A stretch of DNA of 38,711 bases from a virus, in IMG/VR virus record IMGVR_UViG_3300032156_000037, positions 1 through 38,711 of that record; one strand, given 5' to 3'. A program made the position numbers and the translations under genes. The first letter of the stretch is position 1; each line of letters opens with the position of its first letter. Shown here piece after piece: positions 18,774 to 36,645 of the stretch. The notes below the pieces were generated by a model. The model was not told the origin of the DNA and searched no databases. It saw only the letters and a program-made list of their open reading frames with translations.

Positions 18774-20516
18774 ATGAAAAAGAAACTCACGACGTTCATC
18801 GGCCTGCTTCTTTTGATAGCGGGACTTCAGTTCGTCATGGCCCCGCAGTCAAGCCTCATCGGGCAGACCTACCGCATCCTCGTCCGGCGGGGACTCGCCG
18901 CCGACCTGCCTGCGTTGGCGACGGGAGAATTCGGTTTCTCTACCGACACGAAGGAACTGCACATCGGTTCCGCCGTCGGCAACCTCCGCGTCATGGGCGA
19001 CTACATCACGCCGGAGATGTACGGTGCGAAGGGCGACGGGGTGACGGATGATACGGCGGCGATACAGGCGGCGATTGATGCGGCAGAAGATGGCGAAGTT
19101 CACTTATCAAAGAAAACCTATTGTCATACGGGACTTTCAATTACCCACAATTTAAAATTAACCGGAGTAGGATGGGACTTTTATGGCTCAGTTTTGTTTA
19201 ATATCGGTGTCGGAACCGGATTGACAATCATAAATGACGATTATACCGGATGTATTCTTTCTGATTTATGTCTCAAGGGAAGTGCAACGACGGGGAATGC
19301 GTTAGATTTACGCGGCGAAGGCCAGACGACATTCCGAAATGTTTATCTCTTGAACGGTGGCGGTTACGGAATCAAATTCCTAAACGGGGGCCATACGAGC
19401 ATTGTGCGTTTATCGAATTGTAGAATTCAAAACATGGCCCTAGATGGAATCTATGGGAGGAGTGAACCGACTGCCCAAATTAATGGAATCAATATACTCG
19501 ATTGCGAAATTACCGCAAACGATGGCGATGGTATAAATCTTTGGGCCAATAATCTAAACATCGAAAGAAATGTCATACAAGGCAACGATGGGGCGGGTGT
19601 AAGATTGACCGGTAGCGACATGGTTACCGGAGATGCCTCCATTTCCGGAGTGAATATTATTGATAATTACCTTGAATTAAACAAGGGCGGAAGCATCGCC
19701 GGGATAACAGAATACAATGTCGTTGGACCCATTGTTCATTATTGTTGGAATTTGCGTATTGAGGGAAACCGACTATCTTTATCCGCAGCTCAGGCCAATC
19801 CAGGAATTACTGCCCAAATAGATTTATCTGGAACCACTGATTCGGGAACAGAATATACGGGGTTATTTATTGGCCCAAATTCATACCATGATGATCTTGA
19901 TTATATCGATTTGAATTATAAGGCCGACACATCGTGTATCGTGGTTGTCGGCCAGGGAACACTGGTGACGAAATATAAACAATTAAATAATGCTCATGTG
20001 ATTTCGTCTCAGACGCTGTATTCCAATGAGGATGGGAATGTCGGTATCAAACAGAAAATTTTCGGGGGGGGCGGGACGAAGATTCTTGCCATTGCTACGG
20101 GGGTGGCTCCCTCCACTTCCCCCGCCGACGCCTATCAGCAATACTCGAAGGATGCCGGGGCCGTCGCGGGTCAGGCCGGGCCGCACTTCCGCACAGAGGG
20201 CGGCGGCATCTTTGGGATGCGCTCCGATACCGGGACGACGCTCCAATATGTTTACCAGGCCGACGCCCTTGCCGACGATGGGACGGTCACGCTCCCGGAT
20301 GCGACGAGCGGGATGGTGCTCGTTTCCTGTAACGGCGAGGCGGGGATGTGGCTCGTCCAGGCTGACGGCACGGTGACGAAGATAAGCGGCTCGACGAACA
20401 CGGCGGCGGCGAATACCGACGCGAACCTGTGCGTCTATGATGGCGGGACCGGGGCCATCGTCAAGAACCGGCTCGGCGCGACGGGTGAGATAAGGATCGT
20501 CTATTACTACAACTAG
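18774..20516 (+). CDS. beta-helix tailspike (pectate-lyase-like), probable receptor-binding depolymerase
   Basis: 580 residues from ATG 18774 (GGGAGAAGG upstream). The first 25 residues look like a signal peptide or membrane anchor (KKKLTTFIGLLLLIAG). Residues about 44-66 are the phage fibre motif LPALATGEFGFSTDTKELHI. Residues 76-100 contain YITPEMYGAKGDGVTDDTAA, the start signature of Pectate_lyase_3 beta-helices. Right-handed beta-helix coils follow to about residue 420. The C-terminal part (APSTSPADAYQQYSKDAG) is a trimerisation/attachment-type domain. It likely degrades a host polysaccharide. Bases 19085-20030 are clearly more AT-rich than both flanks, so the beta-helix was probably swapped in. 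An internal ATG at 18837 would omit the hydrophobic leader. Confidence 0.85.
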   Translation: MKKKLTTFIGLLLLIAGLQFVMAPQSSLIGQTYRILVRRGLAADLPALATGEFGFSTDTKELHIGSAVGNLRVMGDYITPEMYGAKGDGVTDDTAAIQAAIDAAEDGEVHLSKKTYCHTGLSITHNLKLTGVGWDFYGSVLFNIGVGTGLTIINDDYTGCILSDLCLKGSATTGNALDLRGEGQTTFRNVYLLNGGGYGIKFLNGGHTSIVRLSNCRIQNMALDGIYGRSEPTAQINGINILDCEITANDGDGINLWANNLNIERNVIQGNDGAGVRLTGSDMVTGDASISGVNIIDNYLELNKGGSIAGITEYNVVGPIVHYCWNLRIEGNRLSLSAAQANPGITAQIDLSGTTDSGTEYTGLFIGPNSYHDDLDYIDLNYKADTSCIVVVGQGTLVTKYKQLNNAHVISSQTLYSNEDGNVGIKQKIFGGGGTKILAIATGVAPSTSPADAYQQYSKDAGAVAGQAGPHFRTEGGGIFGMRSDTGTTLQYVYQADALADDGTVTLPDATSGMVLVSCNGEAGMWLVQADGTVTKISGSTNTAAANTDANLCVYDGGTGAIVKNRLGATGEIRIVYYYN

Positions 20517-20707: not shown

Positions 20708-20825
20708 GAACGCGCCTGCGGGGCGAACTCCTTTTCCCGCCCCCCTCATGCGGGGATGGACCCCGGGACGCGAATTTGACGGACAAAACCCCCCGAATTT
20801 AGGCACTTGGGGGCTTGGGCAGAGA

Positions 20826-20845
20826 CGTGTCCACGGGGTGTCCGT
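20826..20845 (+). repeat. paired GTGTCC element 1 (candidate integrase arm site)
   Basis: CGTGTCCACGG followed directly by GGTGTCCGT. It is one of three such pairs around attP and the integrase remnants. Spacing and clustering resemble arm-type integrase sites, but binding is inferred only. Confidence 0.4.
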
Positions 20846-20944
20846 AAATCATGCCCATCGGCCCGGCTCGATTGACTCGTCTTGTCTCGTTCTTTCCCAT
20901 ATAAATCAGGGTTGGTTTGCTCCTGCCCTGAGAAGGCATATTCC

Positions 20945-20986
20945 TTCCTAACCCGCAGGCCCCCCGTTCAAGTCGGGGCAGGGGCG
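20945..20986 (+). other. tRNA-Arg(CCU) 3' half: candidate attP core
   Basis: The 42 bases fit tRNA positions 32-73 without adjustment: anticodon loop TTCCTAA (anticodon CCT), 3' anticodon strand CCCGC, 5-base variable loop, T-arm CCCCG-TTCAAGT-CGGGG, acceptor strand CAGGGGC and discriminator G. The preceding bases do not pair with CCCGC, so the 5' half is missing. CCA is not encoded. Phages that integrate into tRNA genes carry exactly such a 3' half, beside the integrase gene, as here. By chance, GCTCCTG at 20919-20925 could pair with the acceptor strand, but no D-arm or anticodon stem exists. Confidence 0.8.
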
Positions 20987-21009
20987 CTTTCCTTACCCCA
21001 CAATATCAG

Positions 21010-21320
21010 TTACTTAGCCGAATGGTGGGGTAAAACATCCGCATGCCGGTGTCCGGCCAACGTGTCCACGGCCTGACGTTGTAACCTCGGGTTGGAGTGC
21101 GAATAAAGAAGGGTTGTCATGTAGGCCGAATGGCCGGCAAGTTGGGAAATTGTAACAACGTCAACCCCGGCGGCCAAGAGTTTCGAGCAAAATTTATGCC
21201 TCAAAAGATGAACGTGAAATGGCACCCCCGCGTTCTTCGATATCGTCGCCGTGAGTTTCCGCAAGATGCTGTTGCTTGTCCTGCCGGGGATCTGAAAGAC
21301 GTATTGGCCCTCATGCCGCC
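21010..21320 (-). pseudogene. tyrosine recombinase remnant B (C-terminal catalytic part)
   Basis: Minus-strand frame reading from about HEGQYVFQIPGRTSNS to the TAA at 21010-21012. It contains the recombinase box HVHLLRHKFCSKLLAAGVD, then ISQLAGHSAYMTT and LLYSHSN with the catalytic Tyr, so the R-H-R-H-Y tail is nearly complete from the second Arg onward. The core-binding and N-terminal domains, including the first catalytic Arg, are absent. Upstream sequence in this frame is out-of-frame translation of remnant A. A functional enzyme is unlikely. It lies beside the half-tRNA, so it once acted on that att site. Confidence 0.8.
21048..21071 (+). repeat. paired GTGTCC element 2 (candidate integrase arm site)
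   Basis: GGTGTCCGG, a 4-base spacer, then CGTGTCCACGG. It lies within the 3' end of integrase remnant B, where the minus strand reads VDTLAGHRHAD. It shares the CGTGTCCACGG word with element 1. Confidence 0.4.
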
Positions 21321-21334
21321 GGCCGGCCAGGATC

Positions 21335-21465
21335 GCCGCGGCCCAGGGCCTCGGAGACCATGATCGTCGAGGCCGTGTGGCGGAGATGATGGAAGGTGAA
21401 GTCGTGGATCCCAGTGATCCGGCGGACGGCCTAGAGCGGACCTGTCCAGAATCGGTCCTGGCTTG
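21335..21465 (-). pseudogene. tyrosine recombinase remnant A (internal catalytic segment)
   Basis: In a different minus-strand frame the DNA reads DRFWTGPL, stop, AVRRITGIHDFTFHHLRHTA, then STIMVSEALG before running into a stop just past the junction with remnant B. The HHLRHTA box is the second catalytic Arg region of another integrase. An in-frame stop and loss of the Tyr segment show it is dead. Two LRH boxes in a row mean this is not one frameshifted gene but pieces of two recombinases. Confidence 0.7.
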
Positions 21466-21541
21466 CTCTGTACGAGGCGAACGCTTTTTAGCTACCTCTG
21501 GGACGGGGGAGGGCCGGAAAATCAAAGCTCAATCAATAAAA

Positions 21542-21567
21542 CCCCCTGCCGCTTGAAGATTAGGGGG
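21542..21567 (-). terminator. hairpin followed by T-run on the minus strand
   Basis: CCCCCT (21542-21547) pairs with AGGGGG (21562-21567) around a 14-base loop. On the minus strand it is followed by TTTTATTG, giving a weak intrinsic-terminator shape. The G-run at 21563-21571 is unusually long. The rest of 21466-21711 shows no gene; it holds the third GTGTCC pair and AT-rich sequence leading into the promoter. Confidence 0.35.
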
Positions 21568-21569
21568 GG

Positions 21570-21590
21570 GGTGTCCGTGGCGTGTCCACG
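21570..21590 (+). repeat. paired GTGTCC element 3 (candidate integrase arm site)
   Basis: GGTGTCCGTGG followed directly by CGTGTCCACG. Like element 1 it sits just after a C-run/G-run inverted repeat, so elements 1 and 3 form imperfect larger repeats flanking the att/int remnant. Confidence 0.4.
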
Positions 21591-21711
21591 AATCGGCCCG
21601 CCCGGTAGCGTCGAAATGCGCCGCTCTCCGAAACGATTAAATTTGGCACGGTTCCGCTCCCGGCAATAAACGTGCCAAATTCAGGCCTCATAAAATAAAT
21701 ATCTTTCCTTA

Positions 21712-21749: not shown

Positions 21750-21923
21750 ATGGCAATCAAAAGCAAAGCGAAGATCAAACCCAAGGAGGTCCGCTTTTTC
21801 CGGCTCTCCGATTCGATGTGGAAAAAAATCCAGGAAGAGGCCACGGTCAGGGAGATGACCGCTAGCGAATACGTCCGCCGGATCATCGAAACACACTTGG
21901 CTGCCGATGCCAAGGCGAGGTGA
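21750..21923 (+). CDS. ribbon-helix-helix regulator, probably leaderless
   Basis: 57 residues. Residues about 15-50 fit the RHH (Arc/CopG) fold: strand VRFFRLSDSMW, helix KKIQEEATVREM, turn TASEY, helix VRRIIETHL. A basic N-terminus (AIKSKAKIKPKE) precedes the strand. There is no Shine-Dalgarno sequence, and the promoter places the mRNA 5' end almost at the ATG, so translation is likely leaderless. As first gene of the early operon it is a candidate repressor or autoregulator of the promoter just upstream. RHH is recognised by pattern; its target is inference. Confidence 0.8.
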   Translation: MAIKSKAKIKPKEVRFFRLSDSMWKKIQEEATVREMTASEYVRRIIETHLAADAKAR

Positions 21924-21925
21924 CC

Positions 21926-22267
21926 ATGAACGTCGGCGACCGCGTCAAGGAAATCTCCTCGGGCCGGGCTGGCCGCGTCCTCCGCATCTTCGACATCGAC
22001 AATCAGGGCAACCTGGCCGTCATTCGGTTGGACCACGAAGACCCCCTCTACGGGAGCGTCCCGGTCGCGATCGACGCGGGGAAATTCTTTAAAACGAAAA
22101 CGGACGAACTCGTCGATGACCTCCTGACCACGGAGACCACGAGGGAATCTTCGGACGATCCGGCGGTCGTCGCTGATTGCCGCCGCGCCGCCCGGATCCT
22201 CTGGGCCCGGATCTGGACTGTCGAACGTGCTCGCCGGCGTTTTCAGATGAAGGAAGAGGTGGGGTGA
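21926..22267 (+). CDS. hypothetical early protein with N-terminal SH3-like barrel
   Basis: 113 residues from ATG 21926 (GAGG 5 bases upstream); an in-frame GTG at 21920 is possible. The N-terminus, VGDRVKEISSGRAGRVLRIF then GNLAVIRLDHED, looks like a KOW/SH3-like beta barrel. A charged linker and a C-terminal helix (RRAARILWARIWTVERARRR) follow. It overlaps the nuclease gene by 1 bp. Confidence 0.65.
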   Translation: MNVGDRVKEISSGRAGRVLRIFDIDNQGNLAVIRLDHEDPLYGSVPVAIDAGKFFKTKTDELVDDLLTTETTRESSDDPAVVADCRRAARILWARIWTVERARRRFQMKEEVG

Positions 22268-31780: not shown

Positions 31781-31944
31781 CCCCCGACATCGCCCTCTGC
31801 GTTTGGCGGAAGGAATGCCCGCTTGCCGGAATCTGCTACCGCGTGCTGGCCGAGCCGGACGAGGTACGTCAAAACTACTTTGCCCCGTCGAAGCTCGGGA
31901 AAGAATGTCCATATTTTATCGAGGACAAGAAGGAGAAAACATAA
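31777..31944 (+). CDS. small Cys-containing protein
   Basis: 55 residues, ATGA overlap. Four Cys (residues 8, 14, 20 and 44) in CVWRKECPLAGICYR and a later ECPYF. The spacing suits a metal or Fe-S site but not a standard zinc ribbon. Similar small proteins occur beside phage nucleases; function unknown. Confidence 0.55.
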   Translation: MTPDIALCVWRKECPLAGICYRVLAEPDEVRQNYFAPSKLGKECPYFIEDKKEKT

Positions 31945-32537
31945 TGCTACGCAAAAGCCATGTGATTAGTTCAGAAACCCGCACTAAAATAGCAAAGGCG
32001 CTGCGCGGTCGCAAACTCAGCCCGGAACACTGTGTTAAATTGTCGGAAGCGCATAAGGGAATTAAACTCAGCCCGGAACACTGCGCGAAAATATCGGCGG
32101 CTAATCACGACCGCGCCCACCTACTTAGCCCGGAGGCTCACGCGAAATTAGTAGCAGCAAATCGAATGCGCATTGGCGAGAAGCGCAGTTTGGCAACTCG
32201 CATTAAAATGTCGGCAATGCGCCGCGGGGAGAATAATCCAAATTGGAAAGGAGGGAGATGTAGATCTGGACCATCCGGGCGCGGATATTTCTATATACTT
32301 CATCCAGACCATCCTTTCGCCACGCGCTCCGGCTATGTGGCCGAACATCGCCTCGTGATGGAGGCCCACTTAGGCCGAACCCTTCTCCCCACAGAAGTCG
32401 TTCATCATATAAATGGCGATATCGAAGATAATCACATCGAAAATCTAATGTTGTTCTCGTCTCAAGGCAAACATCGCAATAATCATGGGAACAAACGAAG
32501 AGGAGGATTACGTGGGAACACCAGCACCATTGTTTGA
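31944..32537 (+). CDS. NUMOD3-HNH endonuclease 1 (free-standing homing type)
   Basis: 197 residues from ATG 31944. Residues 10-95 contain NUMOD3-like DNA-binding repeats ([42 protein letters not shown]). PNWKGGR follows at 100. The HNH_3 nuclease core is at 131-177: [35 protein letters not shown]. Its DNA is AT-richer than the flanks. It overlaps the start of the next gene. A free-standing homing endonuclease that nicks or cuts relatives lacking it. Confidence 0.9.
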   Translation: MLRKSHVISSETRTKIAKALRGRKLSPEHCVKLSEAHKGIKLSPEHCAKISAANHDRAHLLSPEAHAKLVAANRMRIGEKRSLATRIKMSAMRRGENNPNWKGGRCRSGPSGRGYFYILHPDHPFATRSGYVAEHRLVMEAHLGRTLLPTEVVHHINGDIEDNHIENLMLFSSQGKHRNNHGNKRRGGLRGNTSTIV

Positions 32538-35639: not shown

Positions 35640-36115
35640 CCCCCCGTGCGCCGTCGAGGGAGAGGGTCTTTAACATCCATGAATTGAAGGCGTGGCTCAA
35701 TGAGTTCATGCCGCTCAAGGGCGGGGTGCTAGAAGAAGTGATAGCCCTCATAGCGATGGTTGATGAGGTTAAATCTCTTGAGGCCGAGAACGAGCGGCTG
35801 AAAGAAGATGTCGGCAGGCTTGGTGTTCAAAATGAAATGCTCAAGGGGCCGTGGTCAAAAATAAAAATAGTAGGTGGAGCGGGTTCTTGGAAAGACAAAT
35901 ATTTCAACGCCTCTGACCTGTGCCAATTTCTTCGTGAAGACAACGACAGGAAGAAGGCCCAACTCGCCAAGCAAGCCCCGCTCATCGAGGCGGTCATGGG
36001 GGCGGACAATAAGAAACTTTTAGACGAGGCCGATATTCTGCGAGACTTCGGCGGAGAAGAGGACCTATCTGTTTCTCTCATCCTCCGCGCCGCCCTCAAG
36101 TTTAGGAAAGAATGA
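35636..36115 (+). CDS. coiled-coil protein, paralogue of the protein at 30157-30495
   Basis: 159 residues, ATGA overlap. A central coiled coil ([20 protein letters not shown]) and the C-terminal pattern L-x-K-Q-x-P-L-I-E-A-V ... [11 protein letters not shown] shared with the shorter protein at 30157-30495. It overlaps HNH endonuclease 2 by 4 bp. Function unknown. Confidence 0.65.
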
Positions 36116-36645
36116 CCGCCCCCCAGTCTGCCCTCTTTAAGCGAGGATTCAAACATAGTCCGGAAGCACGAGCGAAGATATCGATGGCGCTTCGAGGTCG
36201 AAAATTCAGCCCGGAACATTGCGCGAAAATAGCCGCCGCACAACGCGGCCCAAAAAACCATAACTTTGGGAAGCGGGTGAGTCAAGAGACGAGAGAAAAA
36301 TTGTCGGCGGCAAGTTTGGGCCGTCCCAAAAGCCCAGAACACCGGGCCAGCCTGAGTGTCGCAAAGCGTGGTGCCAATCATCCCAATTGGAAAGGGGGCC
36401 GCCATAAGAATAGCGATGGCTATATATATATTTTCTTGCCGAACCATCCGCACCATAATGGCAAGGGCCGCGTTTGGGAGCATCGCCTTGTTATGGAGGC
36501 GCACCTTGGCCGGACCCTCCTTCCCACGGAAATCGTTCATCACATCAATGGAATTCGGGACGATAACCGAATCGAAAATCTGACGTTGTTTTCTTCCCTT
36601 GGGAAGCATATTGGCTATCACAACGCCAAGAGGAAAGTGAAGTGA
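36112..36645 (+). CDS. NUMOD3-HNH endonuclease 2
   Basis: 177 residues. NUMOD3-like repeats at residues 14-87 ([50 protein letters not shown]), PNWKGGR near 92, and HNH_3 at 121-166: [35 protein letters not shown]. Clearly a paralogue of the gene at 31944-32537, almost identical around the nuclease core but diverged in its repeats. Its last bases overlap regulator 2 by GTGA. Confidence 0.9.

Follow-up and report, generated by a model that had tools for sequence, protein, structure and literature searches.

The phage genome and its attachment region

The window analysed here is the whole of viral record IMGVR_UViG_3300032156_000037 (38,711 bases). It carries the genes of a phage: terminase, portal, tape-measure, tail spike, a Sak4-like protein, a ParB-like protein, a methyltransferase and an endolysin. 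A megablast search of positions 1–24999 against phages gave no match. GC content is 0.44 at 19001–20000, inside the tail spike gene, against 0.53–0.65 in the other 1-kb steps. The last 400 nt of the same gene are 84% identical to a related phage, G002, where they are placed differently; taken together, this looks like a swapped domain. Two similar reading frames, 31803–32537 and 36112–36645, both with repeated motifs, have an HHING...ENL motif in common (by eye); judging from these letters, they are likely to be related endonucleases of the HNH type.

Half of a tRNA-Arg(CCU) gene

On the plus strand, positions 20945–20986 read TTCCTAACCCGCAGGCCCCCCGTTCAAGTCGGGGCAGGGGCG. These 42 bases fit tRNA positions 32–73, with anticodon CCU. 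The anticodon loop TTCCTAA (32–38) is followed by CCCGC (39–43) and AGGCC (44–48), then by a T-arm (49–65) whose strands CCCCG and CGGGG make five perfect pairs around the loop TTCAAGT, and finally by CAGGGGC (66–72) and G73. ARAGORN found no complete tRNA gene in the whole window, and the Rfam tRNA family had no match at E ≤ 10 within 20800–21200; there is therefore no whole tRNA gene. Single-strand folding is uninformative here: the fold of 20915–20990 is unremarkable (z −1.67) and the fold energy of the 42 nt alone is average (z 0.16). When a genuine tRNA-Arg(CCU) gene, that of locus L005 (an Acidobacteria genome discussed below), is aligned with the window, its best place is exactly 20945, with 37/41 identities, compared with a maximum of 26/41 when the window was resampled 60 times under a first-order Markov model. 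At the last position, the window has G73 and 4 of the 5 tRNA-Arg(CCU) genes that we found have A, so that a tRNA origin can be demonstrated for 41 nt.

The original prediction had read these 42 bases as positions 32–73 of a tRNA-Arg(CCU) with a perfect T-arm, had noted that the 5′ half was missing, and had taken the whole for the core of a phage attachment site (attP). The first point is confirmed, both by the sequence and by the match to a real gene (37/42), and the second is borne out by ARAGORN and by the upstream bases, which do not match positions 1–31. The third is supported by the matches to real tRNAs, by the position and orientation of similar pieces in three related phages, and by repeats that these phages share with the window. 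As in attP sites of the tRNA type, the fragment extends to the 3′ end of the tRNA and lacks the 5′ half, and an integrase gene adjoins it, in the form of a remnant that ends 23 nt away.

A broken integrase beside the tRNA half

What the original prediction left out of its picture is the state of this neighbouring gene, which is destroyed. Matches to the tyrosine integrase family PF00589 are limited in the window to two pieces, both on the minus strand and in different frames; serine recombinases (PF00239) have no match. The piece nearest to the tRNA half (remnant 2, 21010–21342, PF00589 with 39.2 bits at 21088–21303) is the C-terminal quarter of a tyrosine integrase, and it is its stop codon that lies 23 nt from the core. 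It aligns with residues 280–376 of the 379-residue integrase frame of a related phage, G003 (49% identity), and is 48% identical to the integrase of G002. By eye, it retains the HxxR, GH and tyrosine boxes and is devoid of the region of the first catalytic arginine; nothing corresponding to the first 279 residues was found in the window.

The second piece (remnant 1, 21312–21427, PF00589 with 15.6 bits at 21350–21427) comes from another integrase and covers the surroundings of its HxLRHT box. Over 102 columns (window 21312–21412), it is 82% identical in nucleotides to the intact 413-residue integrase frame of yet another relative, L034 (L034:3265–4506); about 100 nt are thus left of this second integrase. 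Parts of two different integrases lying head to tail look like the outcome of an integrase swap that failed or stayed partial, and the presence of remnant 1 beside remnant 2, taken with the intact gene of L034, suggests that swapping of integrase modules takes place here. Some 300 nt without a recognised gene then precede the next reading frame. A small ribbon-helix-helix-like protein is encoded at 21750–21923 (plus strand), with weak Arc-like Pfam matches that fall below cut-offs; lying next to the integrase region, it is at most a candidate component of the site. Used as queries in viral contigs, the integrase remnant and the neighbouring gene at 21926–22267 returned 55 and 28 pattern stretches, respectively, and no relative.

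An attachment site in working order would have an intact integrase in the same element, and the window has two fragments. For this reason we class the locus with orphaned attP sites and do not count it among working integration systems; present-day integration is doubtful, the adjacent integrase being broken.

Related phages have tRNA pieces at the same place

A search with the Sak4-like protein led to three records of 41–43 kb, G001 (L023, 91% identity), G002 (L024, 61%) and G003 (L025, 58%), and these are the ones that have a tyrosine integrase among the seven records examined. The integrases of G002 and G003 are intact and full-length, while that of G001 is cut by the contig end. In all three, the integrase stop is closely followed by the 3′ part of a tRNA, encoded on the other strand. 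In L034, the fourth relative with an integrase, inspection by eye of the 700 nt that follow the gene revealed no evident tRNA half. The distance from the integrase stop to the tRNA end is 69 nt in G003, 134 in G002 and 16 in G001, to be compared with 23 in the window. The tRNA part of G003, TTCCTAATCCATGTGTCGGGGGTTCGAGTCCCCCCAGGGCTA, again has the loop TTCCTAA and anticodon CCU, and its core differs from that of the window at many positions. The isotype of the two others was assigned by eye: an Arg(UCG)-like half in G002 and a Ser-like T-loop and acceptor end in G001. G002 also holds a complete tRNA-Ile(UAU) gene (L024:14347–14418), unlike its Arg(UCG)-like attP half.

GTGTCC repeats around the core

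Counting both strands, the window has 16 copies of the hexamer GTGTCC. Six of them fall within 20780–21620; these are plus-strand copies without exception, grouped into three close pairs that start at 20827/20838, 21049/21062 and 21571/21582. It is the top hexamer of that region, with a binomial P of 7e-7 that is only nominal; the motif was first chosen in the window itself. In a fixed region from 150 nt before to 250 nt after the core start (401 nt), it heads the list of 334 hexamers in the window; in the same region around their own cores, it also heads the lists of G003 (330 hexamers) and G002 (335), all three being records of this integrase type.

Two of these pairs would make the arms of the attachment site. 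The putative left (P) arm, 20827–20843, has two direct repeats 11 nt apart, which begin 118 and 107 nt upstream of the core; the corresponding distances are 113 and 107 nt in G003, and 104 nt in G002. The putative right (P′) arm, 21049–21067, has two copies 13 nt apart that fall within the integrase remnant. Its distance from the end of the 42-nt core is 63 nt, against 74 nt in G003 and 29 nt in G002. The right pair of the window (GTGTCCGGCCAACGTGTCCAC) is near-identical to that of G003 (GTGTCCGGCAAAGTGTCCAC), and as both overlap integrase codons, part of this similarity may be coding. The motif is missing from the 2.2 kb around the site of G001, as expected if it goes with the type of integrase, since the G001 enzyme shares only 32% identity with the others. 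Placed as they are, the GTGTCC copies look like arm-type integrase sites, and this family of integrases thereby gains a candidate arm-site motif.

The third pair (21571–21587, plus strand, 11 nt apart) lies upstream of the integrase remnants, without an explained role. On both sides of the att/int region (20779–20865 and 21535–21600), a CCCCC/GGGGG inverted repeat is followed by a GTGTCC pair, and 21535–21600 resembles a diverged duplicate of the left arm.

Matching tRNA genes and the question of the host

The original prediction held that the core names the host directly, through a tRNA-Arg(CCU) gene containing exactly this sequence. The exact 42-mer is absent from genome contigs of at least 3,000 bases (one genome per species, 84,980 species), as it is from the other viral contigs searched. 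A degenerate pattern of the Arg(CCU) half, which fixes CCTAA, the inner T-stem and the acceptor strand and which an exact host tRNA would satisfy, retrieved nothing from viral contigs and five loci from genome contigs. All five are tRNA-Arg(CCU)-like, and they extend over several phyla: Acidobacteria (L005, also G011, from MAG fen_186, with 37/42 identities to the core, and L006, with 36/42), Deltaproteobacteria (L004, 36/42), Nitrospinota (L002, 35/42) and Zipacnadia (L003, 32/42). ARAGORN recognises a tRNA-Arg(cct) in L002 to L005; L006 is cut by a contig end. The loop TTCCTAA is common to the window and 4 of the 5 genes, and identity between the window and real genes begins at position 32, inside the anticodon loop.

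With up to 3 mismatches allowed, the 41-mer was found in 0/395 genomes of the phylum of G010 and 0/396 of that of G011, two sets that are samples and do not exclude these phyla as the source of the host; it was found in 0/77 genomes of the phylum of G008 and in 0/5 of the order of G010. Prediction of the host is therefore weak, as no genome contig has the exact 42-mer and near matches are scattered over several phyla; the core gives a faint handle that appears to single out no phylum. Of the original claim, the existence of tRNA-Arg(CCU) genes near-identical to the core stands, and the exact gene is wanting, with 37/42 as the best match. In the same way, the finding that was to refute it, namely that no bacterial tRNA has such a 3′ half, holds so far for exact identity and fails for near-identical genes.

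The prediction further proposed to look for a prophage at the matching tRNA locus. At the nearest gene, L005, we saw no acceptable evidence of one, and the 3.4 kb around the tRNA showed no notable second tRNA fragment. A 449-residue tyrosine integrase frame (L005:1228–2577) does end 16 nt before the 5′ end of this gene. We dropped it as prophage evidence: it sits on the 5′ side, and it is 28% identical to the G003 integrase. What the core offers to the study of this uncultured phage group is a testable prediction, that its hosts have a tRNA-Arg(CCU) with loop UUCCUAA and acceptor strand CAGGGGC.

An attachment site probably orphaned by loss of its integrase

We think it very probable that 20945–20986 is the attP core of a tRNA-Arg(CCU) gene, orphaned when the adjoining integrase was lost. 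Directly visible are the half tRNA gene, the position and orientation that it has next to an integrase in the window as in relatives, the repeats in common with related phages and the broken state of the gene. From these, one may propose how the site would have worked. Before the loss, a tyrosine integrase expressed from the neighbouring minus-strand gene would have bound the arm-type GTGTCC pairs that flank the core. Strand exchange would have taken place in the anticodon loop of the host tRNA gene. By analogy with known tyrosine integrases (PMC4383910), a tRNA would have been rebuilt at the integrase side of the prophage, from host positions 1–31 and phage positions 32–73, the old host 3′ half being left at the far end. 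Since about 279 N-terminal residues of the integrase are gone, the phage presumably no longer integrates by its own means. In our preferred reading, the site is the fossil of a recent integrase loss.

Metagenomic assembly could create such a fossil artificially. If two integrase variants had been collapsed into a false junction, attP would be real and the living phage would have an intact gene. The junction, around 21312–21342, indeed joins fragments of two integrase types, the exact 42-mer occurs in no other viral contig that would confirm the region, and the integrase is intact in the sister records G002 and G003. A false junction would nevertheless have to account for what is missing beyond it: some 279 N-terminal codons for remnant 2, and most of the gene for remnant 1, with 300 nt or so without a recognised gene before the next reading frame. 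We hold this explanation to be unlikely, while giving it some weight.

The orphaned site could also still be in use in trans, with an integrase provided by a resident prophage or by a co-infecting sister of the G003 type. The core and both putative arms look intact despite the loss of the gene, and G003, whose integrase is intact, has a right-arm pair almost identical to that of the window and shares its tRNA isoacceptor. Intact arms are equally explained by a recent loss, however, and the G003 core departs from that of the window; we find use in trans rather improbable. A bolder form of the idea, integrase parasitism among full-size phages, where selection would maintain the orphan attP and the enzyme would be borrowed from sister phages with the same tRNA specificity, is a speculation to which we give slightly less credit.

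That the stretch is no attachment site, being the ruin of a phage-encoded tRNA gene, has in its favour the heptamer GCTCCTG (20919–20925, inverted repeat I10), the one exception among the upstream bases, which could pair with the 3′ strand of the acceptor stem. We rejected this very improbable reading, as the D-arm and the 5′ anticodon strand are missing, 19 nt taking the place of 25 in the L005 gene, and as in three relatives the corresponding position next to the integrase is occupied by 3′ parts that come from different tRNAs. Chance resemblance, for which one might invoke the ease with which stems form in a GC-rich stretch and the average fold energy of the 42 nt, has a negligible probability and is rejected by the resampling control.

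Comparison with known systems

Assigning hosts to metagenomic phages through matches between attP and tRNA genes, as the original prediction proposed, is already published (PMC3861242), with the warning that such a match alone leads to a broad assignment, for example to phylum or class. The matches described there are exact, whereas the best one for the window core is 37/42.

Phages with tRNA-dependent lysogeny (PMC10865867) are described as having a tyrosine integrase, an attB in a tRNA gene, about 10 bp in common with attB, and a replacement tRNA. The window resembles them in the type of integrase and in the attB expected in a tRNA gene. It differs in the length of its half gene (41–42 nt) and, as it has no tRNA gene at all, in the lack of a phage tRNA of the same isotype. 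We rejected this mode for the window.

The Islander survey (PMC4383910) maps attP/attB systems of tyrosine integrases in tRNA genes, where attP is a 3′ tDNA fragment beside the integrase gene; it counts 2083 'A' and 1836 'J' islands, exchange centred on the anticodon being one of two classes. The window likewise has a 3′ tDNA fragment next to its integrase gene. Unlike these systems, its integrase is broken, and no lysogen, pair of attL and attR sites or exact host tRNA was found.

The argW gene of E. coli encodes tRNA-Arg(CCU). It is the seat of the KplE1 (CPS-53) prophage, with a duplicated core of 16 nt (PMC2951348). The target of the integrase is a tRNA-Arg gene in KplE1 and would be one in the window; the core is 16 nt long and the integrase works in KplE1, whereas in the window similarity covers 41–42 nt from the anticodon loop on and the integrase is broken.

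Finally, for a lost integrase or an integrase pseudogene accompanied by attP, our literature search brought up no exact precedent, which is no proof of absence; the reverse case is represented by the virulent Oenococcus phage OE33PA, described as having an integrase, with attP not identified (PMC6256464). Set beside these systems, the new points of the window are the orphaned state of its attP and the candidate arm motif, and the lesson is that a phage contig with half a tRNA gene does not necessarily have a working integration system.
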